Shown: in pieces, positions 2,978 through 19,322 of the stretch
Numbering within the stretch: position 1 is the first letter of the stretch
Layout of the letters: every line of letters begins with the position of its first letter
Source: Chitinophaga niabensis
GTDB lineage: Bacteria > Bacteroidota > Bacteroidia > Chitinophagales > Chitinophagaceae
NCBI RefSeq assembly: GCF_039545795.1
Contig: NZ_CP154260.1
Location: forward strand, 5,151,001-5,215,000
DNA length: 64,000 nt
Direction of reading: 5' to 3'
Made by a program: the position numbers and the translations under genes
Notes under the pieces: generated by a model
Databases searched by the model: none
What the model was told of the DNA's origin: nothing
Seen by the model: only the letters and a program-made list of their open reading frames with translations

Positions 2978-3085
2978 AAAACCGTTGTTGATATTAGCCC
3001 TAACTTATCAAGATGCAAAAATCGCTCTTTTGCCTTGAAATATACATAGTTACGGCTGCATTATATTGAATTCCCGAAAAAAGCC

Positions 3086-4399
3086 TTATTCTTCTATCAT
3101 TTCCAATATCTTTTCATTCTCAATGATCACCATGCCATGACGGTCGTTGGTAATCCCCGCCGTGAGTGTATATGGATACCGTGGCACGCTTCCCTCCATT
3201 ATTGTTGGGAGGTAAGAAAACTGCAGGTTGTCGCAATCTTCCTTCAGGCTGTCGCCAACTTCAATAATATGGGTTGAAATAACAAAAAAACTGTTACGAT
3301 ATGTAGAAAATTCTTTAGTAACTGCCAGCGTTGCATCATAAGCATCTTTTACGTTGGTGCCTTTAAAAAGCTCGTCAAAAATGACCACCAGGTCATTACC
3401 TTTAGCTACTTCCTCTGCTACTTTCTTTACCCGCAGCACTTCTGCATAAAAATGGCTGTAACCGAGGTTTAGATTGTCCGGTACATTGATCGATGTATAG
3501 AGCCCGTCCCTTACGGAAAACAACATGTCCTTTGCAGCTACGGGAAATCCCATATGGGCAAGGTAAACGGCTATACCCAGCGACTTCATAAAAGTGGATT
3601 TACCGGCCATATTCGCACCTGTCAGAAAAAGAACGTTCTGATCTTCCTGCAAGCTAAGCGGATTAGTCACCGCTTTTTCCAGAGCCGGATGGCTTAATGC
3701 AGTGGTCCGGAAAATATTCTTCTCCTTTGGAAGGGCCTGTGCATAAGAGAAGTTCCGGGCACGGGCTACATTACTTACCGCTATATAAACGTCCAGGTGA
3801 TAAATGAAATCAAGTATGTTTTCCATTTCCTCCCGAAGTACATGGCGGATGAGGTGATCATACCGCGCCAGCTGGAACAGGCCATATTGCTGATTGTTCC
3901 GCGCCTCCCGCAGCCATTTCATCCGGGGATCACTGAAGATGCTCCTGATGGCCTCAAATTGCCCTGTTAAAGGATAGTCATTTGTTTTTTGCAGAAAATC
4001 CTGTAAGGTGTTTAATATCTCAATAGTTGCGAGGAGTCCGTTCTCCAAAAGGCCATACTGTTCATCCTTCACCGCCATATGCAGTGCCTTCTTTCTCAAA
4101 AGCTCCCCGGCAACCATCAGAAACGAACTTCCGGTTCCTCCGGCCAGGTATGCTTCTGCTACCTGAAATACCGGTTTGTTAAACGGAAACAATAGTTTTC
4201 TCTCGTGAAAATATTGAAACACCTGGCTACGGCTGTTAATAGCAGCAGGATCAGATAGTGGATGATTAAACATCGTATCCAACAGCTTTTCCCCGCCCCT
4301 TGTTTGCGTACCATTAAAGAGGCTGAATAACGATTGATGGCTAAACTTTCCTGTTATATTCAGATCGTCCAATGTTTGCTTATCCGTTATGAAACTCAT
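3086..4399 (-). CDS. MutS-like ATPase, short form (paralogue of the preceding gene)
   Basis: A 437-aa protein of the MutS family ATPases that lacks the N-terminal mismatch-recognition and connector domains of true MutS. Residues 1-230 look like part of the lever/clamp region. Residues 240-437 form the ABC-type ATPase with Walker A (GANMAGKSTFMK), signature region (NLGYSHFYAEVLRVKK), Walker B (VVIFDELFKGTN) and switch histidine (STHII). It overlaps the upstream paralogue by 20 bp, so the two are probably translated together and could form a heterodimer; that is inference. A role in canonical mismatch repair is not supported. The substrate, perhaps a DNA joint or branch structure, is unknown. 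Confidence 0.85.
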   Translation of the reverse strand: MSFITDKQTLDDLNITGKFSHQSLFSLFNGTQTRGGEKLLDTMFNHPLSDPAAINSRSQVFQYFHERKLLFPFNKPVFQVAEAYLAGGTGSSFLMVAGELLRKKALHMAVKDEQYGLLENGLLATIEILNTLQDFLQKTNDYPLTGQFEAIRSIFSDPRMKWLREARNNQQYGLFQLARYDHLIRHVLREEMENILDFIYHLDVYIAVSNVARARNFSYAQALPKEKNIFRTTALSHPALEKAVTNPLSLQEDQNVLFLTGANMAGKSTFMKSLGIAVYLAHMGFPVAAKDMLFSVRDGLYTSINVPDNLNLGYSHFYAEVLRVKKVAEEVAKGNDLVVIFDELFKGTNVKDAYDATLAVTKEFSTYRNSFFVISTHIIEVGDSLKEDCDNLQFSYLPTIMEGSVPRYPYTLTAGITNDRHGMVIIENEKILEMIEE

Positions 4400-5741
4400 G
4401 TGCTGCAGTTTTTTGTAGTTTCTTTTTCCCCTTTTTCAAAATATCCAATATTCCTTCGTTGTTGATGATCACCATTCCATGTCTGTCGCCGGTAATACCT
4501 TGTTCCAATGTATAGGTATATTCGGGATGATGGCCGACCATTCGGGTAGGCAGGTAAACAAAATTGATGTTAGGGCATTTTTCTTTCAGCACTTCACCAG
4601 CCTCAATAATATGCGTTGAGATAACGAAAATACTCTTCTTCTTTTTTGCGAAGGCAGTTGTAATAGCAATCGTGGCCTCATATGCATCCTTTACATTCGT
4701 TCCGCGAAACAGTTCATCAAAAACAATAAACAGATCTTTCTTCGTACTCAGCTCATGGGCCATCTTTTTTACCCGTAATACTTCCGCATAGAAGTGGCTG
4801 GCTCCCATACCCAGATTGTCCGGCAGATTGATGGTCGTGTAAACACCATCAAGTACGGTAAATTCCATCTTCTTTGCCGCTACAGGGAACCCCGCATGCG
4901 CCAGAAACATGGCAATGCTGAGTGATTTCATGAAAGTGGATTTACCCGCCATGTTAGCGCCGGTAAGAAAGATTACATTACTATCTGTGGTGATATTGAT
5001 CGTGTTTGGCACCGCGTTTTTTACCTGGGGATGGTACACTCCTTCCAGTTTCAGCAGATCTTGCTGGCCTCCGGGCAAGGCTTTTGGAAAAACAAAATTC
5101 CGCTCATTCGCCACTTTTGCAATCGACAGGTATACATCCAGATAAAAAATAAGTCTCAACAGCTTTTCAACCAGGGTCCTGTGTCTAAAACGCAGGATTA
5201 CATCAAACTCTGCGATCTGTGCGTGCGACAGCTTTCCTGTGCTCTGATGAATTACAGTGAAGGCAGGATTGTCAAGAATTACGAGCATTTCTTCCTTTTC
5301 CGTTTTATAAAAACTGCTCGTACCCAGTTCCTTTATAAATTCCCGTGCATTCCTCATCAGATCCACCAGAGCTTCCACACCCTTATAGATCAGGTGTGTA
5401 TCAACGTTCATAGCCACCATATTCGTCAGCTTCCGCGCCAGTGAATTTTCCTGCATTGACAGTTTGGAGCGTTCATCGGTGTTGGCAAGATATGGGGTAA
5501 TCAGATCAAAGTCTGCGCTATTAAAAGGGAACGGGATATTCAAAGCCGCAAATGACTGGATAATACCACTGCGTTTGTTAATAGCCTCACTATCGGAAAG
5601 CGGATACCGGAACATTTCTTCCAAAATCGCCGTGCCCCCTCTTGTAGAGCAGCGATTGAAAATGTTGAAAATGGAATCTCCGCCATGTTTACCGAAGATA
5701 TTCAGATCTTCCAGTGTTTGTTTATCTGTAGTAAATAACAT
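4380..5741 (-). CDS. MutS-like ATPase, short form
   Basis: First gene of a two-gene MutS-like operon; about 453 aa. Its N-terminus (LFTTDKQTLEDLNIFGKHGG) aligns with that of the downstream paralogue (SFITDKQTLDDLNITGKFSH), so I prefer the ATG at 5741; an in-frame ATG at 5777 would add 12 residues. ATPase motifs are all present: Walker A GANMAGKSTFMK, signature GMGASHFYAEVLRVKK, Walker B FIVFDELFRGTN and STHII. No mismatch-binding domain (no FxE motif) and no Smr nuclease domain is seen, which separates it from MutS1 and MutS2. It has a unique basic C-terminal tail (KKGKKKLQKTAAHEF). Its function is unassigned beyond a DNA-associated ATPase. Confidence 0.85.
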   Translation of the reverse strand: MLFTTDKQTLEDLNIFGKHGGDSIFNIFNRCSTRGGTAILEEMFRYPLSDSEAINKRSGIIQSFAALNIPFPFNSADFDLITPYLANTDERSKLSMQENSLARKLTNMVAMNVDTHLIYKGVEALVDLMRNAREFIKELGTSSFYKTEKEEMLVILDNPAFTVIHQSTGKLSHAQIAEFDVILRFRHRTLVEKLLRLIFYLDVYLSIAKVANERNFVFPKALPGGQQDLLKLEGVYHPQVKNAVPNTINITTDSNVIFLTGANMAGKSTFMKSLSIAMFLAHAGFPVAAKKMEFTVLDGVYTTINLPDNLGMGASHFYAEVLRVKKMAHELSTKKDLFIVFDELFRGTNVKDAYEATIAITTAFAKKKKSIFVISTHIIEAGEVLKEKCPNINFVYLPTRMVGHHPEYTYTLEQGITGDRHGMVIINNEGILDILKKGKKKLQKTAAHEFHNG

Positions 5742-5908
5742 GTGCTTTTTTTGAATATAGTAGCTAATATCTGACATATTTTCGGAAATGGTTAGCCGGT
5801 CATAATATTTTCGGTTACTGTTGATCCCTGAAATAGTGAGGAAACGGGTAATGCTGCGGGAGTAAACTGACAGGACACAGGTGCAGATAAGCGCCGGGTG
5901 GAGGGGTA

Positions 5909-6000
5909 AACAAACTCATACTATGAACGAGTGAAACCCGCTACCATAGGGCTAAAGATAACAAAAAAACAGTTAAGGGGAAGCGATATTACTCCCCTAT
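5909..6000. repeat. Left boundary repeat (putative att site)
   Basis: About 80% identical by eye, with one gap, to 19400-19490. Identical blocks include tgaaacccgctacca, catactatgaac and cgatattact. On the minus strand the copy ends in GGG-GAG-TAA-TATCG, matching the GGG-AAG-TAA-TATCG at the mnmE stop codon in the right copy. It therefore looks like a displaced mnmE 3' end and downstream flank. The divergence suggests that one copy came with the element from another species, or that the insertion is old. Confidence 0.7.
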
Positions 6001-6351
6001 ATAGAAAGTGGAAATCATTGCTTTCAAATACCTACATTCAAAAAAATACATTGGAGACACCTGGCCTCTAATAATACCACTGTGGCCCTCAATCGCCAAT
6101 CCGTCCATTACGCTGTTGGTACAGTTATCCACCACAGCTGTGCTCACAAGAACTGGAGCAAAAACAGGGGAACTTGCTCCCGCTTTAAACCCAAAGTATT
6201 TCTACATTTATGACTAATTTAGATTGTCGAATTTCCCCTGTGACGATATACATCCAAAAACAAGAGTCTGGACAAATTGAATAGCAATTATTGGATTCGG
6301 AATGTGTTGGATTTAGAATTGCTTTGTCTGCCTCATAAAAAAATCTTCTAT
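6001..6351. other. Non-coding stretch inside the left island end
   Basis: No convincing gene. On the minus strand an open frame runs from about 6210 to 6003 and ends exactly at the GGGGAGTAA of the left repeat. It has no good start and I do not recognise its product; it may be a remnant of a gene truncated by integration. The plus-strand 69-codon frame over the same bases looks like chance. Confidence 0.3.
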
Positions 6352-7314
6352 ATGTCTACAAGCCGCAAAGAATTTATTCGCAATTCATTTCTGCTCGCCG
6401 GAGCGGCAGGGTTCAATATACCATTGCCATCGGAGTTAAACGAGAAAAGATTGTCCAATGCAGAGGGTGACCGGCTGGTTCTATTGGGCACTCACGGCGG
6501 CCCTTTCATTCGCTCTTATATGCAAACCCCTTCCGCTAACCTTACTGTATATAAAAACATCCCCTTTGTCATTGATACTGGGTATGGCACAACATTTAAA
6601 CTGAAAGAAGCCAGTATCAATTTGTCAACGTTGAAATATATTTTCATTACACATCTCCATTCCGACCACTATCTTGACCTTGGCCCGTTATTATACAATG
6701 CCTGGATAGCAGGGTTAGCCGAACCAATAAATGTTTACGCACCTGCTGGTATACGTCCTTTGCTGAACGCTTATTGGGAATCGAACCGCTTTGATATTGA
6801 CGCAAGAATTAAAGACGAAGGACGGCCAGACATAAGAAATCTTGTAATAGCCCATGAGATTGCAGAAGGCATACAGATAGCACACCCGGATTTTGAAATC
6901 AGTGCTATAAAAAACATACACCCTCCTATTGATGCCAGTTATGCATTCAAATTTAAACTCGGCAAAAAGATCATTGTTTTTTCGGGAGATACAGCCTATC
7001 ATCCGGCGTTAGCAACTTTTGCTTCCGGGGCCGACTATCTTATTCATGAAGTGATGTATGGTCCTGCTGTTGATGAAATGGCCAAGAGACGCCCCAATGC
7101 TACTAAATTAATTGCGAGCATCAAATCGCATCATACATCAGCAGAAGATGCTGGCCGTATAGCTAAAGCAGCGAATGTAAAAACGCTTATTCTAAATCAC
7201 TTTGTTCCTCCTGATGACAAATCGCTAAACAGCCAGGTTTGGATTGATGCAGTGCGCAATACTTTTACGGGGGTTATTATTGTTGGAAAGGACCTGCAGC
7301 AATTTAATTTCTAA
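6352..7314 (+). CDS. Exported metallo-beta-lactamase-fold hydrolase (RNase Z-like)
   Basis: About 320 aa. I chose the ATG that begins MSTSRKEFIRNSFLLAGAAG because it gives a twin-arginine-like or Sec signal peptide (RK rather than RR); a TTG further upstream would add 25 unlikely residues. The metallo-beta-lactamase motif HLHSDH lies at residues 101-106, with a later GDT (about 228) and HF near the C-terminus, as in the RNase Z/AtsA branch that binds two zinc ions. Known relatives include arylsulfatase-type and ribonuclease Z-like hydrolases; the export signal argues against tRNA processing. It lies upstream of an AraC regulator and an epimerase on the same strand, which suggests a small metabolic cluster. 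The substrate is unknown. Confidence 0.85.
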   Translation: MSTSRKEFIRNSFLLAGAAGFNIPLPSELNEKRLSNAEGDRLVLLGTHGGPFIRSYMQTPSANLTVYKNIPFVIDTGYGTTFKLKEASINLSTLKYIFITHLHSDHYLDLGPLLYNAWIAGLAEPINVYAPAGIRPLLNAYWESNRFDIDARIKDEGRPDIRNLVIAHEIAEGIQIAHPDFEISAIKNIHPPIDASYAFKFKLGKKIIVFSGDTAYHPALATFASGADYLIHEVMYGPAVDEMAKRRPNATKLIASIKSHHTSAEDAGRIAKAANVKTLILNHFVPPDDKSLNSQVWIDAVRNTFTGVIIVGKDLQQFNF

Positions 7315-7411
7315 ATAAATCCATGGTCAGGTTTTCGTTTACTGGTAGCCGTTACTTCCCGATACAAAAGTCCCTGCGTGCTTAACAATATATCCTTTAA
7401 ATTTGCTGAAT

Positions 7412-8272
7412 ATGCGGAACAGTACCTCCTTTCTTTACAAACTCAGGCAAAACGACAAACTTCCGATCCGGATCGTTTCTCCTGAGTTCGGCCACCTGTC
7501 ACCATTGGAGGCAGCTGACTACGATGCTCCGCGGCACACGCCGTACTACCTTTTCCTGTTTATGCTGGTTGGACGTAGTGGGCACAACATAGATTTGCAG
7601 CAGTATGAAGCAGGCGACAACGAGTTGATATTTGTGATGCCACACCAGGTCCATGATCAGCCAGTAATGGAGCAAGGCGCCAATTTTTTGAAAATCGGCT
7701 TTGATGAAAGCTGTTTATCCCTGTTACCAAAGCAATATCCTTTTCTGATCGATCCGCTAAATAATCAGAAAGTGAATTTTGAACCATCTGCAGCACTAAG
7801 GGTGAAAGCCATTTTCGCTATCCTGCTTGATCTGTTAAAATATTGGCATACTGAACCTGATCTGATCCTCGCGCATCTGAACAGCTTGCTTACTGAGATC
7901 AATATGGCTTATTTCATGGCTCACCAAAATCCCCCGGACGGTAAACTTTCTAAGTTTATGGCCTTTAAGGCATTCGTAGAACATCACCTGACGAACCATT
8001 ACAGTATCAGCAGGATCGCCCGGCAATTGGGTGTTAATACCAATGGGTTATATCAGATCGTCAAACACTATTCCGGGCTTTCACCAAAAGAGTTCATCAA
8101 CAAGCGGCTGATCCTGGAAGCAAGGCGACGTATCAGCTATGCCGAAAGAACATCGATCAAAGAACTGGCTTACGGGTTAGGTTTTAACGATCCGGAATAC
8201 TTTTCCCGCCTTTTTAAAAAAATCACGGGGCAAACAATTGCCCAATTTTCTAAGGATTTGTCAGGGAACTAA
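7412..8272 (+). CDS. AraC-family transcriptional regulator
   Basis: About 286 aa, starting at the ATG of MRNSTSFLYKL. The N-terminal half (about 15-150) has the pattern of an AraC cupin ligand-binding domain. The C-terminal 100 residues hold the two helix-turn-helix motifs of the HTH_18 domain (ISRIARQLGVNTNGLYQIVK, then IKELAYGLGFNDPEYFSRLF, then KKITGQT). A cytoplasmic DNA-binding activator of neighbouring genes is the usual role. It lies 64 bp before the epimerase gene, so that gene is the likeliest target or partner; the inducer is unknown. Confidence 0.93.
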   Translation: MRNSTSFLYKLRQNDKLPIRIVSPEFGHLSPLEAADYDAPRHTPYYLFLFMLVGRSGHNIDLQQYEAGDNELIFVMPHQVHDQPVMEQGANFLKIGFDESCLSLLPKQYPFLIDPLNNQKVNFEPSAALRVKAIFAILLDLLKYWHTEPDLILAHLNSLLTEINMAYFMAHQNPPDGKLSKFMAFKAFVEHHLTNHYSISRIARQLGVNTNGLYQIVKHYSGLSPKEFINKRLILEARRRISYAERTSIKELAYGLGFNDPEYFSRLFKKITGQTIAQFSKDLSGN

Positions 8273-8336
8273 TGCTATTTATCCGGCTTGTTTAAAAGGG
8301 CAGCTCCGACTTTTGTTCAAGATAAAATTCAAAAAA

Positions 8337-9167
8337 ATGAAAGAACAAAAAGGAGCAATATTGGTAACCGGCGGGACCGGCCTGGTTGGCACGCGCCTGT
8401 TGCCACGACTTATCAATGCTGGTTTTGATTGCCGCGCACTGATGCGTGGCAAAAAAGAAGCCCCGGCCGGAACAATGGTTGTGGAAGGCGATCTGTTCGC
8501 CCCTGTCTCACTAGCCCAGGCAGCGAAGGGTGTTTCAGCGATCATTCATTTAGCAGCCGTATTCCGGTCACCCGATACAGATCTGATCTGGAAGAGTAAC
8601 CTGGAGGGAACCCGTAACCTGATAGCCGCAGCGAAAACACATGCACCTGATGCACGTTTCATTTTTGCCAGTACCAGTCATGTCTATAGCGTAAATAATC
8701 CGCATCCCGGCCGTGAGGAAGATGAAGTTACCCCCCAGCATGCCTATCCGGCCAGTAAGGTTGCGGCAGAAAATGAACTGCGGGGGAGCGGGCTTAACTG
8801 GTCAATTCTCCGGTTCCCATTTGTGTACGGAGATGGCGACGGGCATCTTGAAGCATTACCTCAGCATGTGGCCGCTGCAAAGTTTCACCCCGCCATGAGA
8901 ATGAGCACCATTCACCACCGCGATATCTACAGCGCTATCAGCATGGCGTTGAATGGCGTTATGGACAGCCGCACTGTGAACATAGCCGATGAAGCCCCTA
9001 CATCGCTCTACGAGTTATTGCGGCTTACGGGCAACACAATGGAGTCATCGTCAGAACCTTTGGTTAACCCCTGGTATCTCCATTCCGATAGTTCACTTGC
9101 CAGAAGCCTGGGCTTTCAACCAGTGATCAGAACCGTTTATCAGGCCGCACAAGAGCATCTGCTCTAA
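8337..9167 (+). CDS. NAD(P)-dependent epimerase/dehydratase (extended SDR)
   Basis: 276 aa from the ATG of MKEQKGAILVTGG; longer upstream frames overlap the AraC gene and lack family similarity. It has a Rossmann fold with the TGGTGLVG nucleotide-binding motif at residues 9-18, a conserved STSH segment (active-site Ser/Thr), and the catalytic Tyr-Lys pair in YPASK. The length fits extended short-chain dehydrogenases that act on nucleotide sugars or small aldehydes. It is probably co-expressed with the upstream AraC gene. Base composition is like the host chromosome rather than the AT-rich half of the island. The substrate cannot be told. Confidence 0.9.
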   Translation: MKEQKGAILVTGGTGLVGTRLLPRLINAGFDCRALMRGKKEAPAGTMVVEGDLFAPVSLAQAAKGVSAIIHLAAVFRSPDTDLIWKSNLEGTRNLIAAAKTHAPDARFIFASTSHVYSVNNPHPGREEDEVTPQHAYPASKVAAENELRGSGLNWSILRFPFVYGDGDGHLEALPQHVAAAKFHPAMRMSTIHHRDIYSAISMALNGVMDSRTVNIADEAPTSLYELLRLTGNTMESSSEPLVNPWYLHSDSSLARSLGFQPVIRTVYQAAQEHLL

Positions 9168-9184
9168 TGTCATCGGAAAATGAA

Positions 9185-9228
9185 AACCGGAAGATGCCGC
9201 TCTATTCATGGGGCGGCATCTTCCGGTT
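9185..9228 (+). terminator. Strong hairpin downstream of the epimerase gene
   Basis: A perfect 16-bp stem (aaccggaagatgccgc with gcggcatcttccggtt) and a 12-nt loop, starting 18 bp after the stop codon. No T-run follows, so it may act in RNA stability or as a boundary rather than as a classical intrinsic terminator. Confidence 0.6.
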
Positions 9229-9229
9229 G

Positions 9230-9325
9230 GGGCTGAGGCCATACTTTTTGATAAAGCTCTTTGTAAAATTGCTTTGTGAACCGAATTCTGCTATATATGC
9301 GGCGGCGGCCAACCTGGGGAGGTAA
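9230..9325 (-). pseudogene. Remnant of an AraC-type HTH gene (C-terminal fragment)
   Basis: On the minus strand an open stretch reads LPRLAAAAYIAEFGSQSNF followed by TKSFIKKYGLSP, the hallmark of the second helix-turn-helix of AraC proteins (AEFGSQSNFTKSF, KKYGLSP). There is no start, no N-terminal domain and no recognition of the frame on either side. The reading ends in the hairpin at 9185-9228. This is a decayed copy of a second AraC regulator, unrelated in frame and strand to the intact one at 7412. Confidence 0.7.
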
Positions 9326-9540: not shown

Positions 9541-11817
9541 TCACGTAACCGGCTTTGACAACCAATCATGTATTTCCTCAATAAAAGAAAGTTCATCATT
9601 AGTAACATAATACGTATGTGAATTTTCATTACGTATTCTATTTAACTGCACCAACCATGAAGTTTTTGCATCCTTATTACCTCCTACACCTGGTTTCGCA
9701 TACATTCCATCAAAAAGTCTCTGCCAGTTCTTTAGGATTATTTCACGATAATTGATCAAATGCAGTTGATCCCAAGGCTCCTTTTCATCCTCATCATCCT
9801 CAATTTCCAGATTCTTCTTTGCTGCTATACTGATGGCATCTGAATACACTTTTTCGGGAAGCCCCTTTTTGAACCAAAGCTTACCAAATTCAGCTTCAAG
9901 TTTTTCGCGAATCCTGTTTTTTAAAAATTCGCTTTCAATCTCTCTTATTAGCCGAAACGCTGCCTCATTATTCTCCTTCTCCTCTTTCATGAGGTATTCA
10001 TCCAACCCCTTATATTCAATATCCGGATGATCCGTTCTCATAGCAACTTGTAACGTTCGCCAATACTTTGCATCTCCGGGAGTACCATAGGAGGTTTTGA
10101 GCTCAGTCGATTTTTGTTCATCAAGATCTTTAAAGAAATGAATTAATGTATCTAAATATGTTGTTAACTCCTCAAAAATACTTTTGGGCGATCTTAGCTC
10201 TTCCAGTCTTCCTTGTTTCTGCAAGTGATTCACTAAATCATTTAACAATAATGTAATGCCATAAAACCCTTTATTGATAACTATGATATTTCCCTCTTGT
10301 TCCCATAAGTCTTCCAAACTAGCCTTTATATAACCGAAACATCGAATAAGAAAATCAGACAAGTTTTTATACGTCTTCTCGATATCACCGGTATAAAAAG
10401 TACCAAGCGTTTCAATTTCATTTTTCTTTACTTTCCCTAGAAAATCTGATCTATTCAATGCCAAATTGATGTGCTCAGTCGTGATAATTCGTTTATCTTC
10501 CCCTATTGAAATCTTTCCAAAAAAGGGAGAAGCCCGATTTTCTCCAAGATTAATAGCAATCTTTGATTTCAGAGCCTTCATTTGCTCAAGATAGCTGTCA
10601 GAATCCCAAAGTAAATCTGCGTCTAGTGTGTTTCTAAGATCCTTTGACACTGCCTTTTGGTTTTCGTTTATCTGCATAAACAACCTAACCTGCTCTGACC
10701 TGTCAATATTGACTAACGCTACAACTGGAATAGAATTCGTAAACTTATATTGAGAGTTAGCATATCCGTAAAGGCGATGTTGTCCATCAATGATAAATGC
10801 GGTTTTATATTTCTTCGGCAAGTACAAAATACCGACTCTTGATATTGCGTTCTCAACTTGAGTATTACTAGGCTGAAAAACTAATCTCTTATTCTTCTCA
10901 GTTACTATATTAATAATAATCGAATTGGGGAAATACCCTTTTTTATCTTCTATAAATGAATGAATTTCTTTGAGCCTTCCTTTCTTAATTAGTCGTTGGT
11001 ATGTTGGCATCATATTCTCGTTCGCTTTATTTCTATGCAACACAAATCCGATCTTCAAAAGCTTATCTGGCTCAATTGAAAAGGAGTAATATGTATGCCC
11101 TCCCATTTTCCCTTCAATTGCAGGAATCCTATTGTCCATATCAGGAATCTCTTGCCCTGAGAATAACGTTCCGAGCAACTGATACCTTGCTGCAATCCCA
11201 ATCTGAGAGTGTAAATCGTAGTAGTAGTCGATAACCTCTTCTGAAAAATGTACACCGTCAATATTCTTCAACCTAGATTCATCAATTTCAGAGAGTCCCA
11301 ATCTGCTGGTCGCAAGAACATACTTAAACTTTGGTTTCTTTGCAGGAAACAATGCACAAATAGTATTAATTAAACCCTGCTTCTTACTTTTCATTGCTTC
11401 TAGTTCCTTCTTGAAGTCACCTATCTTATCTTTGTTTGAGGATCTACATTCAACTATCAAAACGGTTTCATCGTCTTTAGCAAAGACATCGATTTGTTGC
11501 GTTAAAGAGGTATTCTTTTTATCGTATGGAAGATGAAAATGCCTGTCTTTATTCATCAGATTAAAGCCTAGCATCGCAAAAAGCGACCAAACCTTATCCT
11601 CAAAAGCTATATCAGATGGCTTAGGTTTGTATATTTTGGTCACAGTTTTTAATTCAGCCTTAATATGCCATCCAGCTAAAATTTTCTCCTCTAGTACTGT
11701 AGAGTTATTGGGGTGACTTTCATTATAAAAATCCGATCTCCTTAATTTTAACTCCTTCCCAATATCATTCCCCGACAAAAGCCTACTCATTAATTTAATT
11801 TGCAACTCTTCAGTCAT
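9541..11817 (-). CDS. DGQHR-domain protein with PD-(D/E)XK-like N-terminus and HEPN-like C-terminus
   Basis: A large cytoplasmic protein of 758 aa, apparently of three parts. Residues about 65-175 resemble a restriction-endonuclease fold (AFEDKVWSLFAMLGF, then D110 and the pair E123-x-R125 in VLIVECRSS; arginine stands where lysine is usual). Residues about 225-400 hold a DGQHR domain (FIIDGQHRLYGY at 342-353, then QVRLFMQINENQKAV), the family that includes the phosphorothioation repressor DndB. Residues about 610-755 are helical and end in R729-N-E-N-S-H734, the Rx4H motif of HEPN ribonucleases (Swt1-like). Its ATG overlaps the stop of the methyltransferase gene (TAATG), so translation is coupled. 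I infer the effector of a DNA-modification defence system; the activity is unproven. Confidence 0.8.
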   Translation of the reverse strand: MTEELQIKLMSRLLSGNDIGKELKLRRSDFYNESHPNNSTVLEEKILAGWHIKAELKTVTKIYKPKPSDIAFEDKVWSLFAMLGFNLMNKDRHFHLPYDKKNTSLTQQIDVFAKDDETVLIVECRSSNKDKIGDFKKELEAMKSKKQGLINTICALFPAKKPKFKYVLATSRLGLSEIDESRLKNIDGVHFSEEVIDYYYDLHSQIGIAARYQLLGTLFSGQEIPDMDNRIPAIEGKMGGHTYYSFSIEPDKLLKIGFVLHRNKANENMMPTYQRLIKKGRLKEIHSFIEDKKGYFPNSIIINIVTEKNKRLVFQPSNTQVENAISRVGILYLPKKYKTAFIIDGQHRLYGYANSQYKFTNSIPVVALVNIDRSEQVRLFMQINENQKAVSKDLRNTLDADLLWDSDSYLEQMKALKSKIAINLGENRASPFFGKISIGEDKRIITTEHINLALNRSDFLGKVKKNEIETLGTFYTGDIEKTYKNLSDFLIRCFGYIKASLEDLWEQEGNIIVINKGFYGITLLLNDLVNHLQKQGRLEELRSPKSIFEELTTYLDTLIHFFKDLDEQKSTELKTSYGTPGDAKYWRTLQVAMRTDHPDIEYKGLDEYLMKEEKENNEAAFRLIREIESEFLKNRIREKLEAEFGKLWFKKGLPEKVYSDAISIAAKKNLEIEDDEDEKEPWDQLHLINYREIILKNWQRLFDGMYAKPGVGGNKDAKTSWLVQLNRIRNENSHTYYVTNDELSFIEEIHDWLSKPVT

Positions 11818-12641
11818 TATAGAACGGTATTAGTGAAAACAAATTCATTCGTTTGACCTCTTTTTGAATTAACGCCTCCGATTAAACTGGCTCTATTCAG
11901 AATTAACTTCTTATCACCTTTTTCAAAAATATTATCAATGGTTGCATGCGCAGCATTAGTGAGAATATAATAGGCGCCTTTTCGCTTTATTATGTCAATC
12001 AATTGGCTTAAACGAATTTGATCATCAAGCGAAAAAATTTTTTCATTGTATTTAATAAATCCATTATTGTTATGGGACACAGTGTACGGGGGGTCAAGAA
12101 ATACTAAATCACAACGTTTTATCTGCTTTGAAATGTTGAAAAAGTCACTCGTTTCAATTGAGGCGTTTTTTAGGGAGCTTTGAACATTTAATAAGTTCTC
12201 TCTATCAAGAAAACCTTTTTTCCTAAACCCGTAAGGCACATTATAAACTCCTTTGAGGTTAACCCTATAAATACCATTAAAAGATGTTTGATTTAAGTAT
12301 ATGAATTTGGCTGCTCTTTTTACGGAAGATTTATATTCCCTTTCACGAATCTTATAATAATCCTCTTCTGTATTAGCAAACGTTTCCAAAACACGAATTA
12401 CAGCACGTGCATCTTTCTTGACTGCTTGATATGTTTCAATGAGGTCGCTGTTTAAATCGGATAAGTATGCATGACCGTTAGGTTGCAAATAAAAATAAGT
12501 GGCTGCACCACCTAAAAATGGTTCAAAATAATTATTAAAGCTACTTTCCTTTACTTTTATCAAATGCTTAATAAGCCAAGTTTTCCCTCCGGCCCATCGT
12601 AAAAAGGGTTTTGCTAACAAATCGCTACTGGAAGAAATCAT
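11817..12641 (-). CDS. Dam-family DNA adenine-N6 methyltransferase
   Basis: 274 aa, the normal length for class D12 (alpha) adenine methyltransferases such as Dam. It transfers a methyl group from S-adenosylmethionine to adenine in a short DNA site. Visible motifs are FLRWAGGK near residues 13-20, the SAM-binding FEPFLGGAA (39-47), NQTSFNGIYR (117-126) and catalytic FLDPPYT (181-187). Recognition could be GATC or another sequence; it cannot be read from the protein by eye. It is the first gene of a two-gene unit with the DGQHR fusion gene. The base composition is AT-rich, unlike the flanking chromosome, which fits horizontal transfer. Confidence 0.93.
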   Translation of the reverse strand: MISSSSDLLAKPFLRWAGGKTWLIKHLIKVKESSFNNYFEPFLGGAATYFYLQPNGHAYLSDLNSDLIETYQAVKKDARAVIRVLETFANTEEDYYKIREREYKSSVKRAAKFIYLNQTSFNGIYRVNLKGVYNVPYGFRKKGFLDRENLLNVQSSLKNASIETSDFFNISKQIKRCDLVFLDPPYTVSHNNNGFIKYNEKIFSLDDQIRLSQLIDIIKRKGAYYILTNAAHATIDNIFEKGDKKLILNRASLIGGVNSKRGQTNEFVFTNTVL

Positions 12642-12811
12642 ATGGTGAAATATAGGTATACGTTAACATTCACGTAATATAAACCGTTTTACAAATTCGC
12701 GCAAATTTTTTCTTCAAACGTGCTAGTAATTCAACACGTTATGCGTGGTATTTGCCAGTTATCTTTTACGTCCTAGAAAATAATGGTGAGAATAATTATT
12801 ATGAAGTAGTT

Positions 12812-13180
12812 TTAGACGGAGGGAGCAGTTCTCTCCCAAAATGCAAAGCATTCCTTACATAAGCGCTCGTATAACGTTGTATTTGAGTGAATGACTTCAA
12901 AAGTTAAGAAAGAAAATTTCTTTACATACCATCGCGCAAAGCCCGGCCCAGGAAAATCGCCGACTTTAACCAATACATTTAATAGGGGTCGCCCTGCCTC
13001 AAATTCTTCCTCGCCGATATCAGTGAGTTCTTTTAAATAGGCAGGTTCATACTTCCTTTTTTCACGATTGTATGCATACCCCGCATTACGAGCAAGTTCT
13101 TTATAAGTAATGGTCTCCTTCTTTTTGGCACATTCAACCAAACACTCGTACATAAATTGCTTTCTTTCTTGATTTGCCAT
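12812..13180 (-). CDS. Hypothetical protein upstream of the methyltransferase
   Basis: 122 aa from the ATG of MANQERKQFMYEC; a TTG five codons upstream is possible. Residues 24-35 (ETITYKELARNAGY) and a later PLLNVLVKVGDFPGPGF look like a compact globular domain with a helix-turn-helix-like start. I do not recognise the family firmly. It lies on the same strand as the methyltransferase but 170 bp upstream, so it is not clearly in the same operon. Confidence 0.6.
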   Translation of the reverse strand: MANQERKQFMYECLVECAKKKETITYKELARNAGYAYNREKRKYEPAYLKELTDIGEEEFEAGRPLLNVLVKVGDFPGPGFARWYVKKFSFLTFEVIHSNTTLYERLCKECFAFWERTAPSV

Positions 13181-13294
13181 CTCTTTTTGGGACAAATCTA
13201 AGAAGTGGTAGATATATTAGTGGAGCCGTGTGAAAATTGATGAAGATATTATTGTATATTAATATATTATCAATAATAAATAAATACTATTTTA

Positions 13295-13534
13295 TTATCT
13301 AATGATAAATGTTACTGTATTTGCGATTGGTGCCTCTAATTCAGAATCGTCATAAGTAAGTTTCTTCACCTTTTCTAGTTTATCATAGGGGGAAGGACGC
13401 AAGCGGCAGTGAATAGTGAAATTAACCGCCCTTACTTCTGCGCCTAGAGCACTTATTTGGCAAAGACATTCTTTCAATATCTGCTCTATTTCCTGCTTCT
13501 CCGGAATACAAGCATCTTGATCTTTAATCAACAT
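13295..13534 (-). CDS. Hypothetical small protein
   Basis: 79 aa, no recognised domain. It has a predicted helical first half (EKQEIEQILKECLCQISALG) and a beta-rich second half ending in TVTFIIR. It follows the 87-aa gene after only 3 bp and therefore belongs to the XRE regulator operon (13295-14162). Confidence 0.55.
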   Translation of the reverse strand: MLIKDQDACIPEKQEIEQILKECLCQISALGAEVRAVNFTIHCRLRPSPYDKLEKVKKLTYDDSELEAPIANTVTFIIR

Positions 13535-13537
13535 AAA

Positions 13538-13801
13538 CTAAATTCTATAGTGAGTATTAGGATTTCCATCAGTAGGGAATAATGAAGGCGATAACTGGAA
13601 TAAAGCATGCATCAACTCTGACGCAGATTCATAAAAGAAAAGCATATCAGCTCTTTTAGCTCCGTCCCACGAATCTGCAATATCACTTTCCATAGCTCCG
13701 TTCAGGAGTTCCCACAACATGGCCTTAACGGATTCCGGGTTTTCATAGCAATCAATAAACCGCTTTATTGTTTTCAGGTGCTTTTCCATGTCTTTACTCA
13801 T
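13538..13801 (-). CDS. Hypothetical small protein in an XRE-regulator operon
   Basis: 87 aa, mostly helical (MEKHLKTIKRFIDCYENPES and FYESASELMHALFQL). No known domain was recognised. Its start overlaps the end of the upstream XRE gene by 8 bp, which indicates translational coupling. It could be a partner of the regulator, for example in a toxin-antitoxin-like or phage-type control unit, but nothing in the sequence proves this. Confidence 0.55.
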   Translation of the reverse strand: MSKDMEKHLKTIKRFIDCYENPESVKAMLWELLNGAMESDIADSWDGAKRADMLFFYESASELMHALFQLSPSLFPTDGNPNTHYRI

Positions 13802-14162
13802 TAAGGGGGCCGCTTTGCACTGCTATCTTCAAAATACTCACAAGCTCTTGGTTTCTTTCCTCCAGCCGCGCAATTCTCGTTTCATAATCGTTTTTATCCC
13901 CAATTCCCTGGCGCTGCAGTATTGAGTTAATAATAAACGTTGTGTTAAATCGAATTAACGCCTCAAACGGTATTTCAAAAACCTCTGCCACCTGTTCAAT
14001 CCGTTTTGGGGTCAACAATGTCTTTCCGGTTTCCAAATCATGATATGCAGTGTTACTGATTCTCATTTTAGCTGCGACATATGACTGGGTGAAGTTGCTC
14101 ACGAGCCTGATTGTCCGAATCAGGCTGGCTAACTTCTCGTTGAAGTCTCGGTTCTTTTTCAT
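13794..14162 (-). CDS. XRE-family helix-turn-helix regulator
   Basis: 122 aa. An XRE/Cro HTH lies at about residues 10-65 (LIRTIRLVSNFTQSYVAAKM, then ISNTAYHDLETGKTLLTPKR), followed by a short coiled-coil-like tail (ETRIARLEERNQELVSILK). It heads a three-gene operon with two unknown small proteins. A dimeric repressor acting on its own promoter is the usual role; no clear operator palindrome was seen in the upstream gap. Confidence 0.85.
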   Translation of the reverse strand: MKKNRDFNEKLASLIRTIRLVSNFTQSYVAAKMRISNTAYHDLETGKTLLTPKRIEQVAEVFEIPFEALIRFNTTFIINSILQRQGIGDKNDYETRIARLEERNQELVSILKIAVQSGPLNE

Positions 14163-14387
14163 AGTGAAACATTGAAGTCAAACTCAATGCTAATACATGG
14201 GCCCACTATTAGCTGTCAATGTTCATTTTCAGGGGTTTTTGTTTATGAAGGAGGAAAACCGTCTCAAAAGAACAATGCAAACAAAATACAGCATAAACCT
14301 CCTGGGTTACCTTAGATGAAAGGCATATGTAACCTTCCTACATGCATTTATAATGAACAACATTTACGGAAAATTATTCCGGGAAAT

Positions 14388-14417
14388 AAAAAAGCCGGGT
14401 AGAATTCCTCCCCCGGC
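14388..14417 (-). terminator. Intrinsic terminator after the 141-aa membrane protein gene
   Basis: Reading the minus strand, a GC-rich stem (gccggg with cccggc, 12-nt loop) is followed by six T residues, 24 bp after the stop codon of the membrane protein gene. Confidence 0.75.
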
Positions 14418-14441
14418 GAAAACTAGGTCGATCTTTGATTG

Positions 14442-14867
14442 TTAAACTTCTTCTTCCTCCGGCCTATCTGTCAGTCGCATTATAAGAGCCGTCACGAATA
14501 AAGACAGGCTTATAAATGCAGTGAAATACACTCCGAAGCTCAATTCATGTAAACCTCCCACCACGCTACCGAAAACCGAATTGGCGGCAACCTGACGCAA
14601 AAATGTGCGCACATCATTTATGTAGTAGATAAGCACGCACAGATTGATAAATCCGGCAAGCATGGCCCCCCATAGCTTCGCATTCTCATCAAGGGGCATA
14701 AGCAAGAGAATGATTGAAATCCCGAAAATCAAGGCACAGATCTTCCCATATAACACACTTATCCCCGATAGTGAATCATTCATAGGTAATGATGCCCATG
14801 GCATGAACACGCTTAAAAGTCCCAGATTCGTTACAATTGATAATAAAACAATCTTTTTGTTTGTCAT
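14442..14867 (-). CDS. Hypothetical four-helix membrane protein
   Basis: About 141 aa from the ATG of MTNKKIVLLSIV; an upstream in-frame ATG at 14948 would place the start across the divergent regulatory gap and is unlikely. Four hydrophobic segments are visible (about 6-22, 40-58, 65-84 and 110-132), ending in an acidic tail (DRPEEEEV). No family is recognised. It is transcribed divergently from a small XRE regulator, with a 16-bp operator-like palindrome between them, so it may be that regulator's target. Confidence 0.6.
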   Translation of the reverse strand: MTNKKIVLLSIVTNLGLLSVFMPWASLPMNDSLSGISVLYGKICALIFGISIILLLMPLDENAKLWGAMLAGFINLCVLIYYINDVRTFLRQVAANSVFGSVVGGLHELSFGVYFTAFISLSLFVTALIMRLTDRPEEEEV

Positions 14868-15203: not shown

Positions 15204-15532
15204 TTATCGCATGAGAGCCGTGGCATTTTTCTCAATTTCTGCGTTATCCCGGGCAGGATTTCGCTTTAAAAAATCTACTACATCATCTAAATCGAAATAA
15301 ATCATCTTCCCGAACGGCTGTAAAATCTGATCTTTCCTCCTGATGTCAACTGGTAAGCATAATTTTTACTAATGCCTGCATATTGACAAAATTCTTCCAG
15401 TGTAAGCACTTTCTTATTCAGAAGCAATGCCTTTTTAATTTCCCGAAGCTCTTCAAGTATTGTGTTTTCCAATTTTTCATACGTTATATGCGATCTTTTT
15501 ACGATTTCAGAATTTAATGATTTTATATTCAA
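15204..15532 (-). pseudogene. Frameshifted HTH_17/excisionase-like gene
   Basis: The first part reads 76 codons and ends RFYSRSGR-stop. After a -1 shift (one missing base) near 15310-15314, the same strand continues GKMIYFDLDDVVDFLKRN and ends at a TAA at 15204. The joined product, about 110 aa, has the usual layout of HTH_17 DNA-binding proteins found with Bacteroidota integrases (VLTLEEFCQYAGISKNYAYQ then LTSGGKI, then K-x-IYFD). The start is a TTG overlapping the integrase stop by 4 bp (TTGA). It is either a true pseudogene, a sequencing error, or, less likely, programmed frameshifting; no canonical slippery heptamer is seen. Confidence 0.75.
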
Positions 15533-16677
15533 TGCGCGAACAGCTCGGGAATTCTACCGGCCGCCTCAATCTTCTTTTTATCAATGACCTTTGCATATAT
15601 CTCTGTAGTCTTCAAATGTTTATGCCCCAGCAGCTTTGATACCGTGTATATATCTGTGTTCATACTTAACTGAAGGGTTGCAAAGGAATGGCGTGCGCAG
15701 TGAAAGGTTATTTTCTTCGTGATGCCGGCAGCCATCACCCACTCTCTCAACCGGATATTATGCCATGCGCTGTACATCAATCCTTCAAAAATTAAAGATT
15801 CCGGCATACCCCGCTCTCCCGTAAACTTTACCGCCTGATCTGTAATTGGCAATATTTCCGCCCCTTTTGTCTTCTGCTGGATAAACTGTATATGCCACCC
15901 CTCTCCTTCACTGAATTTCAGTTGCTGCCATGTTAATGATTTCACATCGGAGAATCGCAAGCCAGTTAAGGCGCTGAACAGAAAAGCGTTCTTCAGGATA
16001 GGAATTTCACATTGCGTATTCACTAAAAGCTGCAACTCCTCAAAGGTTAGGTATTGACGATGAGTATCGCCGGCTTTTATCCCTTTTACACGGGCAACCG
16101 GATTTTCTTTTAACAGCCTGCTGTTAAAGGCTTCCTTTATGGCAGTACGGACCTTGTTAAAGTATGAGAGGGCAGTGTTCTGGGCCAAAGCGCGCTCTTT
16201 ATTTCCCCGCCTTGCCTTACAAGTCAAGAGGTATTCCTTAAATCGCTCAAGAAACAGATCATCAACCTGGTTCATGGTGAGATCTTTCCCGCTACAAAAG
16301 GTTACAAGGTGCCGATATGTGCTGAGCCAGTTTCCGTAATTACCCTCCGACTCGTGCTTTTTCTCAGTGAGCTGCTTAAAATACTCAAGGAAGCTCACTT
16401 TTCCCATTACATTACTTACAAAACCGTGCTGACTGCTTTGTGCCGCAAGTATCTTCTTCGCCTTAATCGCCTCTGCCAGCGCAAGCGTTTCCTTGTTATG
16501 ATCACGCTGAAGCTGATTCTTAGGCTTCTCATACAAGAAAAGATTCAGAGATTCATACTCCCGTGGACGCTCCGCACCGTAGTAATATGCAAGAAACAGG
16601 GTAATTTTACGAACCCTCCCGTTTTTCTCGCTGGCCTCGGATAACTTGCTTTTTCTCTTTAAAAGGTAAATCTTCAT
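15529..16677 (-). CDS. Tyrosine-type site-specific recombinase (integrase)
   Basis: 382 aa, full length. An N-terminal arm-binding region lies at about 1-90 and a SAM-like core-binding domain at about 95-195. The catalytic domain spans about 205-375 with all expected residues: R241 (TGLRFSD), K269, H326 and R329 (HCARHSFA), H352 (LGHKHLKTTEIY) and nucleophile Y361. It should catalyse integration and excision of the island at the mnmE 3' end. It is followed at once by an HTH gene that would be a natural excision factor or regulator but is frameshifted. It sits about 2.8 kb from the right boundary. Confidence 0.95.
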   Translation of the reverse strand: MKIYLLKRKSKLSEASEKNGRVRKITLFLAYYYGAERPREYESLNLFLYEKPKNQLQRDHNKETLALAEAIKAKKILAAQSSQHGFVSNVMGKVSFLEYFKQLTEKKHESEGNYGNWLSTYRHLVTFCSGKDLTMNQVDDLFLERFKEYLLTCKARRGNKERALAQNTALSYFNKVRTAIKEAFNSRLLKENPVARVKGIKAGDTHRQYLTFEELQLLVNTQCEIPILKNAFLFSALTGLRFSDVKSLTWQQLKFSEGEGWHIQFIQQKTKGAEILPITDQAVKFTGERGMPESLIFEGLMYSAWHNIRLREWVMAAGITKKITFHCARHSFATLQLSMNTDIYTVSKLLGHKHLKTTEIYAKVIDKKKIEAAGRIPELFAH

Positions 16678-17244
16678 GGAAAATCGCTTTTTTGGTTACG
16701 AATTGTTATGCGACTTTCCGCTGACTTTTTCGATCAAGCAACAGTTACCACGATAATAGCGGGTTTCAAAAGGCAATTAATAATCTAGGCACTTTCCCTA
16801 TCAGAAAGTATTCGGATTTTGATGGTGGCTTTACGGAAATTTTCCCTTTTATGCAACAACCTGGGGAGATATACTCAGAATTCTTTCAAACTGATATTTC
16901 GTTGAAGGCAGATAAAATTTTGCGAGATTCATCATTATCTCACAATTGATTATTCTTGCTTCATTATGCAATTGATGCGGGCAAACCTGAAAATACGCAT
17001 GCTCGTTTTTACCCTTGCCAAATGCATTTTTTTCGCTTAAACATATTTTCCGATACATTCACCTACTTAACGGGAGATCATTGAAAAAAGTGAGGTTTCT
17101 ATACGTAAGAATCACGTTTGGGTTCAAAAGGATGATTTTCATATTGAGATCAACAGAAAACGCGTGAAATAACTACTTCACTCTCTTGTTTTTTTCAGAA
17201 AAATTTCGTTTTTTTTTATTTAGAGAATATATATAATAAGAATC
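16678..17244. other. AT-rich non-coding region upstream of the integrase
   Basis: No gene is convincing; a 69-codon minus-strand frame at 16849-17058 has no recognisable content. The 12-mer tagcgggtttca at 16757-16768 also occurs, inverted, in both island boundary repeats, so this stretch may hold integrase-binding sites. Confidence 0.4.
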
Positions 17245-17406
17245 ATAATTAAGAATACGAAGGTATTCTTAATTATTCCTTTAAGAGAAATAAGCGTAGC
17301 TAACGCTCCACTCATTTCTCTATCTTCTTTTTATATTCTTTATTATATAATAGTATAAGAGAAGAAAGAATAAAGTACGAACACGAAGTGTGAGTATTTT
17401 ATTCTT
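17245..17406. other. Cluster of three hairpins in non-coding DNA
   Basis: Three inverted repeats follow one another. (a) 14-bp arms, ataattaagaatac at 17245-17258 paired with 17263-17276, loop gaag. (b) agagaaat/atttctct at 17284-17291 and 17314-17321, enclosing agcgt/acgct. (c) aagaataaagtac at 17366-17378 paired, with one mismatch, with 17394-17406, enclosing acac-gaa-gtgt. No open frame covers them. They could be a structured RNA, an origin or recombination structure, or stacked terminators. Confidence 0.5.
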
Positions 17407-17487
17407 ATGCAACATTCAAAAAAAATTTAAACTCTCCCGTGCTTTATCCTTCTTTTGAAGTTAACCGGAGGTCAGGTGTTATTAAAA

Positions 17488-17597
17488 TTCACCTTTGCAT
17501 AACGCGAATTTTCGATTTTCACTTCAATCTTGTGTATTACATCCAGAAAACGATTTGAAACGAAAAAATCGATGTTTACGACAGTTAAAACTACGTT
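17488..17597. repeat. Island repeat R1, upstream of the SUKH-like gene
   Basis: Roughly two-thirds identical by eye to 18391-18500. The best conserved parts are the start (tcaccttt, then gaattttcgatt) and the end (gatttgaa, cgaaaaaa, cgatgttta). A shorter third copy of the first part lies at 19323-19398. The three copies lie around the last cargo genes of the island. Confidence 0.6.
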
Positions 17598-17646
17598 TAT
17601 TCATATCTTGAATCTCTAAAGATTAAAAAAATACCGATAGGCATCA

Positions 17647-18378
17647 ATGAATAAGCTCATTACACGATATATGTCAGGAGAGTACGATAAAGTGTGGAAG
17701 GAAATCGAAAACACTGATATTCAGCATCTTGACATGATTCACGCAGATGATATACGAGCCGTATTGCGGGAGACGTTTTCCAGGGTTGCCTATAACCTTC
17801 AAATTATCTACAAAGCCTTGACCGATATCGGCTATCATTTTGCCTCCGATCACCCTCTTGTGGCACCAGATAGCAATACTGGTGCTAGACTTACAAAGAT
17901 TCAAGAGGCTGTAAGCTCATTCGGCCATATTCCGGAGTCGTTAAAATATTTCTATGAAATCGTAGGAAGCTGTGATTTTACGTGGAACGCATACGCCAGC
18001 TCACCAATCTGGGAATACTCCGATCCCTTGCAGATATCTGGGATACAGGAATTATCTGAATATGTTTCCGATGGTGACTGGGCAGAGTATATAGAGGAAT
18101 TAAAGGCAGAGACTACTGACATGGTACCATATGTTGAGCTCTCCGCCGACTTTTACCATAAAGACAATGTCAGTGGGGGACAAGCATATTCCATTGCAAT
18201 CAATCCATATCCTTCCGTTGATTCCAAACTCCTGTTTGAGGAACGGAATACAACGTTCATTAATTATTTGAGAATCAGCATAAATAATTGCGGCTTTTCA
18301 AGAATCGACAAGATACAACGTATTGAAAGCCTAGACAGCTTTCTAAAAACTGTGAAGCCTCAACTTAAACCCTTTTAA
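17647..18378 (+). CDS. Hypothetical protein, SMI1/KNR4 (SUKH)-like
   Basis: 243 aa. The middle part (about 80-125) reads LTKIQEAVSSFGHIPESLKY then FYEIVGSCDFTW, the pattern of SUKH/SMI1-KNR4 domains (a small helix-rich lead, then LP/IPES...YYxxxG). Other regions, including a C-terminal segment ending LKTVKPQLKPF, are not assigned. SUKH proteins are best known as immunity proteins against contact-dependent or polymorphic toxins. No toxin gene is next to it, so an orphan immunity gene is one reading. It is flanked by diverged direct repeats (R1 and R2), like a mobile cassette. The family call is tentative. Confidence 0.6.
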   Translation: MNKLITRYMSGEYDKVWKEIENTDIQHLDMIHADDIRAVLRETFSRVAYNLQIIYKALTDIGYHFASDHPLVAPDSNTGARLTKIQEAVSSFGHIPESLKYFYEIVGSCDFTWNAYASSPIWEYSDPLQISGIQELSEYVSDGDWAEYIEELKAETTDMVPYVELSADFYHKDNVSGGQAYSIAINPYPSVDSKLLFEERNTTFINYLRISINNCGFSRIDKIQRIESLDSFLKTVKPQLKPF

Positions 18379-18390
18379 ATCCTGTATTCG

Positions 18391-18500
18391 GAATCACCTT
18401 TCCATCACGGGAATTTTCGATTCTTAAATTCAGCACGGCCATTTACCCCGGGAAATGATTTGAAGCGAAAAAACCGATGTTTACAACGGTAAATAAACGC
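18391..18500. repeat. Island repeat R2, downstream of the SUKH-like gene
   Basis: Second copy of the repeat at 17488-17597, same orientation, about 900 bp further on. It separates the SUKH-like gene from the next, oppositely oriented gene. Confidence 0.6.
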
Positions 18501-18511
18501 ATCTTTCTATC

Positions 18512-18805
18512 TCACTTGTCATCAAGAATACTCCCATTCTTAATACTCACGTACTTATCACTGATTGCATTCCAAATATTCTTCATAATATCCTCGCCGC
18601 GCTCTTCAATCCATCCAGATGATTCCCAAGTCTGATTCTGGGTTTCAAATATGAAATAAACCGGTAAATTAATTACCTCATGAAGATTACCCGTTGCTCT
18701 CACGAAGGAAACATCAAATCTATATTTTCCATCTACTTTTGTCATTTCTACTTCAAAAGGATGATCATAACCATCCCAATGAAAAGTTAAGATATCGTTG
18801 TGCAT
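18512..18805 (-). CDS. Hypothetical small protein
   Basis: 97 aa from the ATG of MHNDILTFHWDGY; a GTG four codons upstream is possible. It is mostly beta-stranded in pattern (FEVEMTKVDGKYRFDVSFV) with a final amphipathic helix. No signal peptide, membrane segment or known domain was recognised. It lies between island repeats R2 and R3 on the strand opposite to the SUKH-like gene. Confidence 0.55.
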   Translation of the reverse strand: MHNDILTFHWDGYDHPFEVEMTKVDGKYRFDVSFVRATGNLHEVINLPVYFIFETQNQTWESSGWIEERGEDIMKNIWNAISDKYVSIKNGSILDDK

Positions 18806-18858
18806 ACTTTTTCCCACTAATTTACATTGTGGCGAGGAAATGTGTTGTGATTCGTATG

Positions 18859-19230: not shown

Positions 19231-19272
19231 AAATCCCCGGGTTTGGTTACAAATCGAAAAGGAAGAAAAAGG

Positions 19273-19311: not shown

Positions 19312-19322
19312 GTACCATAATC

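Follow-up and report, generated by a model that had tools for sequence, protein, structure and literature searches.

Why should a Dam-like DNA methyltransferase be joined, stop codon to start codon, to a protein that appears to carry two different nucleases? The question is raised by two genes in a 64,000-nucleotide stretch of the Chitinophaga niabensis genome (contig NZ_CP154260.1, positions 5,151,001 to 5,215,000), here called the window and numbered from its first letter. We give even chances to the reading that the pair is a methyltransferase-coupled defence module of two genes on a probable mobile island, in which the second protein would act, by analogy with known systems, as a nucleoside triphosphate (NTP)-switch effector with both a DNase and an RNase. 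The gene pair is real and conserved, and it is probably a defence module, with defence, the reading of methylation and cutting as its presumed activities. Our observations concern the gene pair itself, its predicted domains, the states of their motifs, linkage and changes of partner.

Both genes lie on the minus strand. The upstream gene (11817..12641) encodes a D12 N6-adenine DNA methyltransferase of Dam/DpnM type, 274 amino acids (aa) long, and its stop overlaps by one base (TAATG) the ATG of a 758-aa fusion protein (9541..11817). An earlier note, made from the sequence alone, had described a Dam-like D12 methyltransferase overlapping a 758-aa open reading frame (ORF), and both ORFs are where it placed them. 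The methyltransferase passes the NCBIfam dam profile (TIGR00571; 206.4 bits, E 6.2e-61, cut-off 114.85) and Pfam PF02086 (145 bits, E 4.1e-42, cut-off 22), and its nearest solved structure is 2dpm, M.DpnII-1 (DpnM), at E 1e-42. Inspection located catalytic motif IV, DPPY, at residues 183–186 (12084..12095, minus strand); all 72 partner methyltransferases that were compared have it. A conserved NG(I/L)YR element is read as Dam-type. No other gene in the whole genome matches PF02086. This Dam/DpnM-like enzyme would mark host DNA with N6-methyladenine, the site being most likely GATC.

From its ORF, profile matches and structure prediction, the fusion appears to be built of a PD-(D/E)XK nuclease-fold domain, a ParB/sulfiredoxin (Srx)-fold DGQHR domain, a helical region and a HEPN domain, all read from the minus strand. 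The first, placed by fold comparison at residues about 67–205 (11203..11619), holds the predicted DNase site D110...E123-C-R125 (11443..11490). The DGQHR domain (residues about 231–390; 10648..11127) was found by profiles and by structure prediction, with the DGQHR motif at residues 344–348 (10774..10788). The HEPN-like domain (residues about 605–758; 9541..10005) comes from structure prediction, is less firm, and contains the predicted RNase motif R729-x4-H734 (RNENSH; 9616..9633). Each of these motifs sits at the residues that the earlier note had named, and fold comparison supports the architecture that it had guessed from them, though HEPN less firmly than the nuclease fold.

The DGQHR domain scores 143 bits against TIGR03187 (cut-off 58.85) and 57.9 against PF14072 (cut-off 29.1), and the fusion is the only PF14072 gene in the genome. 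Its Q274-R275, DGQHR and F380-x3-N384 make up the signature common to GmrS; the part of PMC4619093 available to us describes the DGQHR domain as homologous to DUF262 of GmrSD, with three motifs common to both. Three more specific assignments were tried and rejected: as a DpdB equivalog the fusion scores 77.7 bits against a cut-off of 300, as DGQHR_dnd_1 (Dnd-associated) 87.6 against 450, and as GmrSD/SspE by DUF262 (GmrSD_N) 11.4 against 33.2. PADLOC reports the fusion as a DpdB match through the common domain only (2.7e-22, residues 232–534), along with a weak match of the HEPN end to PDC-M34B. Sequence searches against solved structures gave nothing usable for the fusion alone (best E 1.6) or for a profile of its family (alignment A2, below; best E 0.61).

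Linkage to the methyltransferase and to other defence genes

Scanning genomes, one for each species, yielded 381 confirmed relatives of the fusion, and the best 80 of the 381 were analysed as loci. Two of these (L016 and L062) are cut by contig ends and cannot be evaluated for the upstream gene, leaving 78. At all 78, the fusion has a D12-type methyltransferase gene on its own strand and no more than about 4 kb away. At 63 of them a Dam-type gene abuts the fusion upstream, with gaps from −71 to +67 when gene starts are chosen by script; 43 of these pairs overlap and 55 are within 20 bases. The remaining loci are seven DpnII operons, six with a divergent D12 gene, one with the methyltransferase downstream and one with McrBC-like genes in between. 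Host phyla of the 80 loci include Bacteroidota, Bacillota, Actinomycetota, Ignavibacteriota, Spirochaetota and others. Because the order recurs at 63 of 78 loci from several phyla, the pairing is more than chance, and the coupling proposed in the earlier note holds up, the close family being free of unlinked homologues. Clustering of neighbours found no conserved third gene for the abutting-pair class: the methyltransferase occurs in 77 loci and the next clusters in at most 9. Methyltransferase and fusion distances are correlated (r 0.44 over 72 loci, with 0 of 1000 permutations as high), which shared descent alone could explain.

The gene is sporadic in its distribution. No copy was found in 147 other genomes of close relatives at E <= 1e-20. 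Among 395 evenly sampled Bacteroidota genomes there were three full-length fusions (the window's own, one at 64% and one at 35%), all with a methyltransferase; the 64% fusion belongs to the genome of L018, and only the 35% one is new. All three short DGQHR proteins in the same sample are without a methyltransferase within 1.5 kb. Three loci of the abutting-pair class have a second, short DGQHR gene of the DndB family at most about 1 kb from the fusion: L014 (10951–12141; PF14072 4e-12), L033 and L037, on the downstream side in the latter two. On the viral contig L001 the methyltransferase upstream of the fusion (4148–4999) is in two frames, as ORFs of 97 and 175 aa; the fusion itself is open at full length, without the R-x4-H motif.

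Other defence genes accompany some of the pairs. Profiles were run on representatives (DpnII, L024 and L090; Drm, L064 and L080; Septu, L028; Pfam D12, L024, L028 and L071), and the remaining loci were assigned by BLAST likeness to these. The DpnII operons (L023, L024, L025, L027, L042, L083 and L090) are ordered DpnM-like methyltransferase, DpnII endonuclease (PF04556, 6e-97 and 1e-96 in the two scanned loci), fusion and then, in six of seven, a DpnA-like methyltransferase, which was not seen in L042, where the locus is cut. The Septu genes PtuA/PtuB occur together with a divergent D12 gene in L028 (4154–10346) and L031 (8001–14263), in two different gene orders, and L092 has an AAA_5 protein and a McrBC-family protein beside the fusion. 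Nine Bacillota loci (L064, L074, L077, L078, L080, L082, L084, L086 and L087), here termed DISARM-like, have, upstream of the Dam-type methyltransferase, genes for DrmA (4e-132), DrmB (7e-44) and a NERD-helicase, the E-values coming from one representative each. On the tree, the divergent-D12 state requires five changes and the DpnII state one.

Constant and dispensable parts of the fusion

Alignment A2 has 83 rows: the window, L001, L006–L011 and 75 genome loci. Left out of it were L042, L062 and L089 (contig ends), L027 (broken start region) and L054 (frameshift); L003 and L004, L005 (same contig as L001), and L012 and L013 (partial matches) also stand outside it. Alignment A3, with 82 rows, drops L040 for its short end. 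Trees were quick ones (LG+G4, no bootstrap).

DGQHR, Q274-R275 and F380/N384 are invariant in all 83 aligned fusions. The DNase set of D, E and K or R is complete in 62 and incomplete in 21. The earlier note had suspected that R125, in place of lysine, weakens the nuclease reading; arginine turns out to be an accepted variant (K in 61 and R in 10 of the 83). The HEPN pair R729/H734 is kept in 52 fusions and gone from 31, never singly, and this joint loss, with just 2–3 independent changes on the tree, has no significance. Combining the two sites, both are kept in 40 fusions, the DNase site only in 22, the HEPN site only in 12 and neither in 9; the tree counts 11 DNase losses and 3–4 HEPN losses. 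The idea that the fusion needs a nuclease to work is not supported by these counts. Because DGQHR is intact throughout and both nuclease sites are dispensable, the ParB-like switch appears to be the constant part. Conservation is higher at C124 and D115 (82 of 83) than at E123 (65 of 83), and the N-terminal domain may therefore also have a structural or binding role.

DISARM-like genes accompany all nine fusions in which neither site is complete, and no such genes turned up at any other locus; for 62 of the 74 other aligned fusions the upstream sequence seen was 4.5 kb or longer, and DrmA could have been missed in the remaining 12. The nine form one clade and therefore count as one event. In the L064 fusion D and E remain and the third residue alone is changed. 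Outside this clade none of 74 fusions lacks both sites. Complementary loss of the DNase and HEPN sites is suggestive, with a one-sided Fisher p of 0.009 ignoring phylogeny and a p of 0.06 when the losses are counted on branches of the tree. Both sites are kept in the aligned fusions beside DpnII (five), Septu (two) and McrBC (one).

Which protein reads the sequence? The fusions of L028 and L031, which have a divergent D12 partner, are 75% and 74% identical to that of L029, which has a Dam-type partner. Their differences from it are spread over the domains as in Dam–Dam pairs of like distance, and in this comparison no block of the fusion is altered with the switch of D12 type. Therefore, unless the two methyltransferases share a target site, the fusion is not the site reader. 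Presuming that the divergent D12 target is not GATC, the comparison argues that the fusion does not read sequence. A search for solved relatives of the divergent enzyme found none for L028, the one tried.

The putative island

The pair lies in a probable island of about 7.5 kb, delimited from sequence features, together with a tyrosine recombinase (integrase) gene (15529..16677, minus strand; PF13102 3.3e-24, PF00589 5.7e-20). Its ends are marked by a putative attachment-site repeat, CAACCTGGGGAGGTA at 9310..9324 and CAACCTGGGGAGATA at 16857..16871 (both plus strand), matching at 14 of 15 positions; the 15-base pattern occurs at these two places only in the 7.2-Mb genome. The G+C content (GC) is 38.2% between the repeats, against 44.3% in 1–9309, 46.6% in 19479–64000 and 37.7% in 16872–19478. 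The right end of the island is unsure because low GC continues past the second repeat to about 19478. The repeats remain putative because no empty integration site turned up: the left flank matches that of relative G004 at 88.7% up to 9182, and beyond this nothing aligned in 19.9 kb.

No clear avoidance of GATC was seen, the island having 21 sites against 25–26 expected; GATC is above expectation in 1–9309 and 19479–64000 and below it in 16872–19478 (5 against 11). Over the whole window (1–64000) it is over-represented: shuffling gives an expectation of 225 sites and 385 are present, of which the island holds 21. Past the second repeat, a 38-base direct repeat (17480–17517 and 18385–18422; 82% identical, 905 bases apart) encloses an ORF (17647–18378) with a weak HepT-like match of 2.2e-4, under the cut-off. 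At 3086–5777 two adjacent, similar minus-strand ORFs resemble MutS-type ATPases by eye.

Mechanism, rivals and known systems

How might the pair work? The Dam/DpnM-like enzyme would mark host DNA with N6-methyladenine, and the fusion would be the effector. Its DGQHR domain would be an NTP-driven switch after the manner of the SspE/GmrSD DGQQR domain, responding to DNA methylation status or to failure of the methyltransferase. Once tripped, the switch would license the N-terminal PD-(D/E)XK DNase and the C-terminal HEPN RNase, and the outcome would be damage to invader DNA, shutdown of the infected cell, or both. The modified base and its site, NTP hydrolysis, sensing, cutting and defence are steps that we infer. 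We favour them because of the methyltransferase linkage, the folds and the invariant GmrS/DGQHR signature; because of the SspE precedent and the DpnII, Septu-, McrBC- and DISARM-like neighbours; and because Drm genes were seen only with fusions in which neither site is complete and the genome has no PF02086 gene apart from the methyltransferase. As to the precedent, the available part of PMC13251355 reports that the arginine of the SspE DGQQR motif is essential for GTP hydrolysis and that recognition of host phosphorothioate licenses cutting of unmodified DNA.

Three distant full-length relatives weigh against the linkage: L003, L004 and L007 (27–31%; on plasmids and a viral contig) are without a methyltransferase. 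All three have a radical-SAM gene close to the fusion relative, and at such loci another modification chemistry possibly replaces the methyltransferase. The radical-SAM neighbours are annotated in L003 (region 11867–14487) and L004 (10347–12999), and were recognised by 39–41% likeness in L007 (10204–11439) and by eye in L040 (194–2651), which also carries a divergent D12 gene. A short DGQHR protein stands beside the fusion relative in L003, L004 and L040, and ATP-binding and PIN-like genes are near it in L003 and L004. In L008–L011 the methyltransferase is downstream of the fusion relative.

A more general scheme, which we hold tentatively and at somewhat worse than even chances, treats methyltransferase and DGQHR domain as a hub. 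A ParB-like NTPase would read the state of the adenine-methylation system without reading sequence and would signal to interchangeable killers: its own DNase and HEPN RNase, or separate DISARM-like genes where its own have decayed. DpnII, Septu or McrBC would be further partners. If true, such a hub would be the adenine-methylation counterpart of the phosphorothioate-sensing Ssp system.

Three rival explanations each retain real probability. It is unlikely that this is classical type II-like restriction-modification (R-M), in which the fusion would recognise and cut unmethylated GATC through its PD-(D/E)XK domain, the methyltransferase would protect the host and HEPN would be accessory. Such a system would account for a methyltransferase and a nuclease-fold gene in one overlapping operon, for linkage at 78 of 78 evaluable loci, and for a complete D110/E123/R125 in the window beside a partner closest to M.DpnII. 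However, 21 of 83 fusions have an incomplete DNase site, through 11 losses on the tree, with the methyltransferase mostly kept where the neighbourhood was seen (not in L007); DpnII is already present at seven loci; and the fusion domains are unchanged with the other D12 partner type, which may however mark GATC too.

We consider a PrrC-like guard equally doubtful. Here a working methyltransferase/restriction complex would silence the fusion, and its disabling by a phage would let HEPN (and the DNase) kill or arrest the cell. Action of this kind is proposed for R-M-linked HEPN domains in the available part of PMC3710099, and it would suit both the complete DpnII systems beside fusions, where both sites are kept in five of seven (those aligned), and a fusion that does not read sequence. 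It sits badly with the 31 of 83 fusions lacking the HEPN pair and with the absence of a visible separate restriction enzyme from most loci (the abutting class, 63 of 78, nine with DISARM-like genes).

Least probable is that the DGQHR protein, in the manner of DndB or DpdB, controls or assists modification and that its ends serve chiefly as structure or for binding DNA or RNA. In its favour, DGQHR relatives are reported, in the portions of the sources available, to regulate or make modifications, and the domain's motifs are invariant where both end sites can be lost. Against it, R729/H734 are lost only as a pair (2–3 independent events), fusions outside the DISARM-like clade never lack both sites (0 of 74; p 0.009 without phylogeny, 0.06 on the tree), and Dam-type enzymes are not known to need a helper.

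How does the pair compare with known systems? DndB and DpdB share its DGQHR domain family (TIGR03187, PF14072); their models span 338–381 positions, a length that would leave no restriction-endonuclease or HEPN ends, and, unlike the pair here, they belong to sulfur or deazaguanine systems. DpnII R-M (DpnM, DpnII, DpnA) shares the DpnM type of methyltransferase and houses seven relatives in its operons, whereas the window pair has no DpnII or DpnA gene beside it and the fusion is an extra gene without a DpnII match. DISARM shares DrmA- and DrmB-like genes and a NERD-helicase upstream of nine relatives; those loci differ from it in their Dam-type methyltransferase and in a DGQHR fusion with degraded nuclease sites, and Drm genes were not found in the window.

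Saro_3948 is likely the L003 gene: L003 lies on plasmid pNL1 of N. aromaticivorans, a species whose locus names carry the prefix Saro. In a 2013 survey of HEPN proteins, Saro_3948 is listed as a Swt1-type HEPN fused to ParB, and MAE_28990 as a HEPN in an operon with ParB nuclease and DNA methylase genes (PMC3710099, Table 1); the part of the survey available makes no mention of an N-terminal nuclease, a D12 partner, DpnII, Septu or DISARM contexts or active-site loss. The earlier note's statement that no described system has exactly this architecture thus stands for the literature searched (preprints and most subscription journals lie outside it), where no module of methyltransferase and REase-DGQHR-HEPN fusion is described, including the available parts of PMC10853773, PMC12839542, PMC5608340 and PMC12707154; it needs qualifying for the HEPN-ParB fusions and the HEPN/ParB/methylase operon of that survey.

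SspE, GmrSD and BrxU (DUF262 plus HNH), as far as the available parts of PMC4619093, PMC13251355 and PMC12707154 describe them, resemble the fusion in a ParB/sulfiredoxin-like domain with QR, DGQ(Q/H)R and FxxxN, in being nuclease-coupled and in being tied to modification. The fusion differs in having DGQHR rather than DUF262 and PD-(D/E)XK plus HEPN rather than HNH, and its partner is an adenine methyltransferase where theirs is phosphorothioate or modified cytosine. Found in several phyla, the pair looks to be a so far undescribed kind of restriction-modification defence: modification-linked restriction in a new form, with a constant core that is the ParB-like switch and not the nucleases. 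Most DGQHR proteins, for example in plasmid records, owe their annotation to the motif alone. Here is a DGQHR subfamily with a fixed kind of partner, in which partner swaps, site losses and contexts separate a constant switch from replaceable nucleases. It offers a testable case of a plain methylation mark possibly coupled to NTP-gated dual DNA/RNA defence, and it would bring DpnII-type restriction, Septu, DISARM and the DndB family under a single framework.

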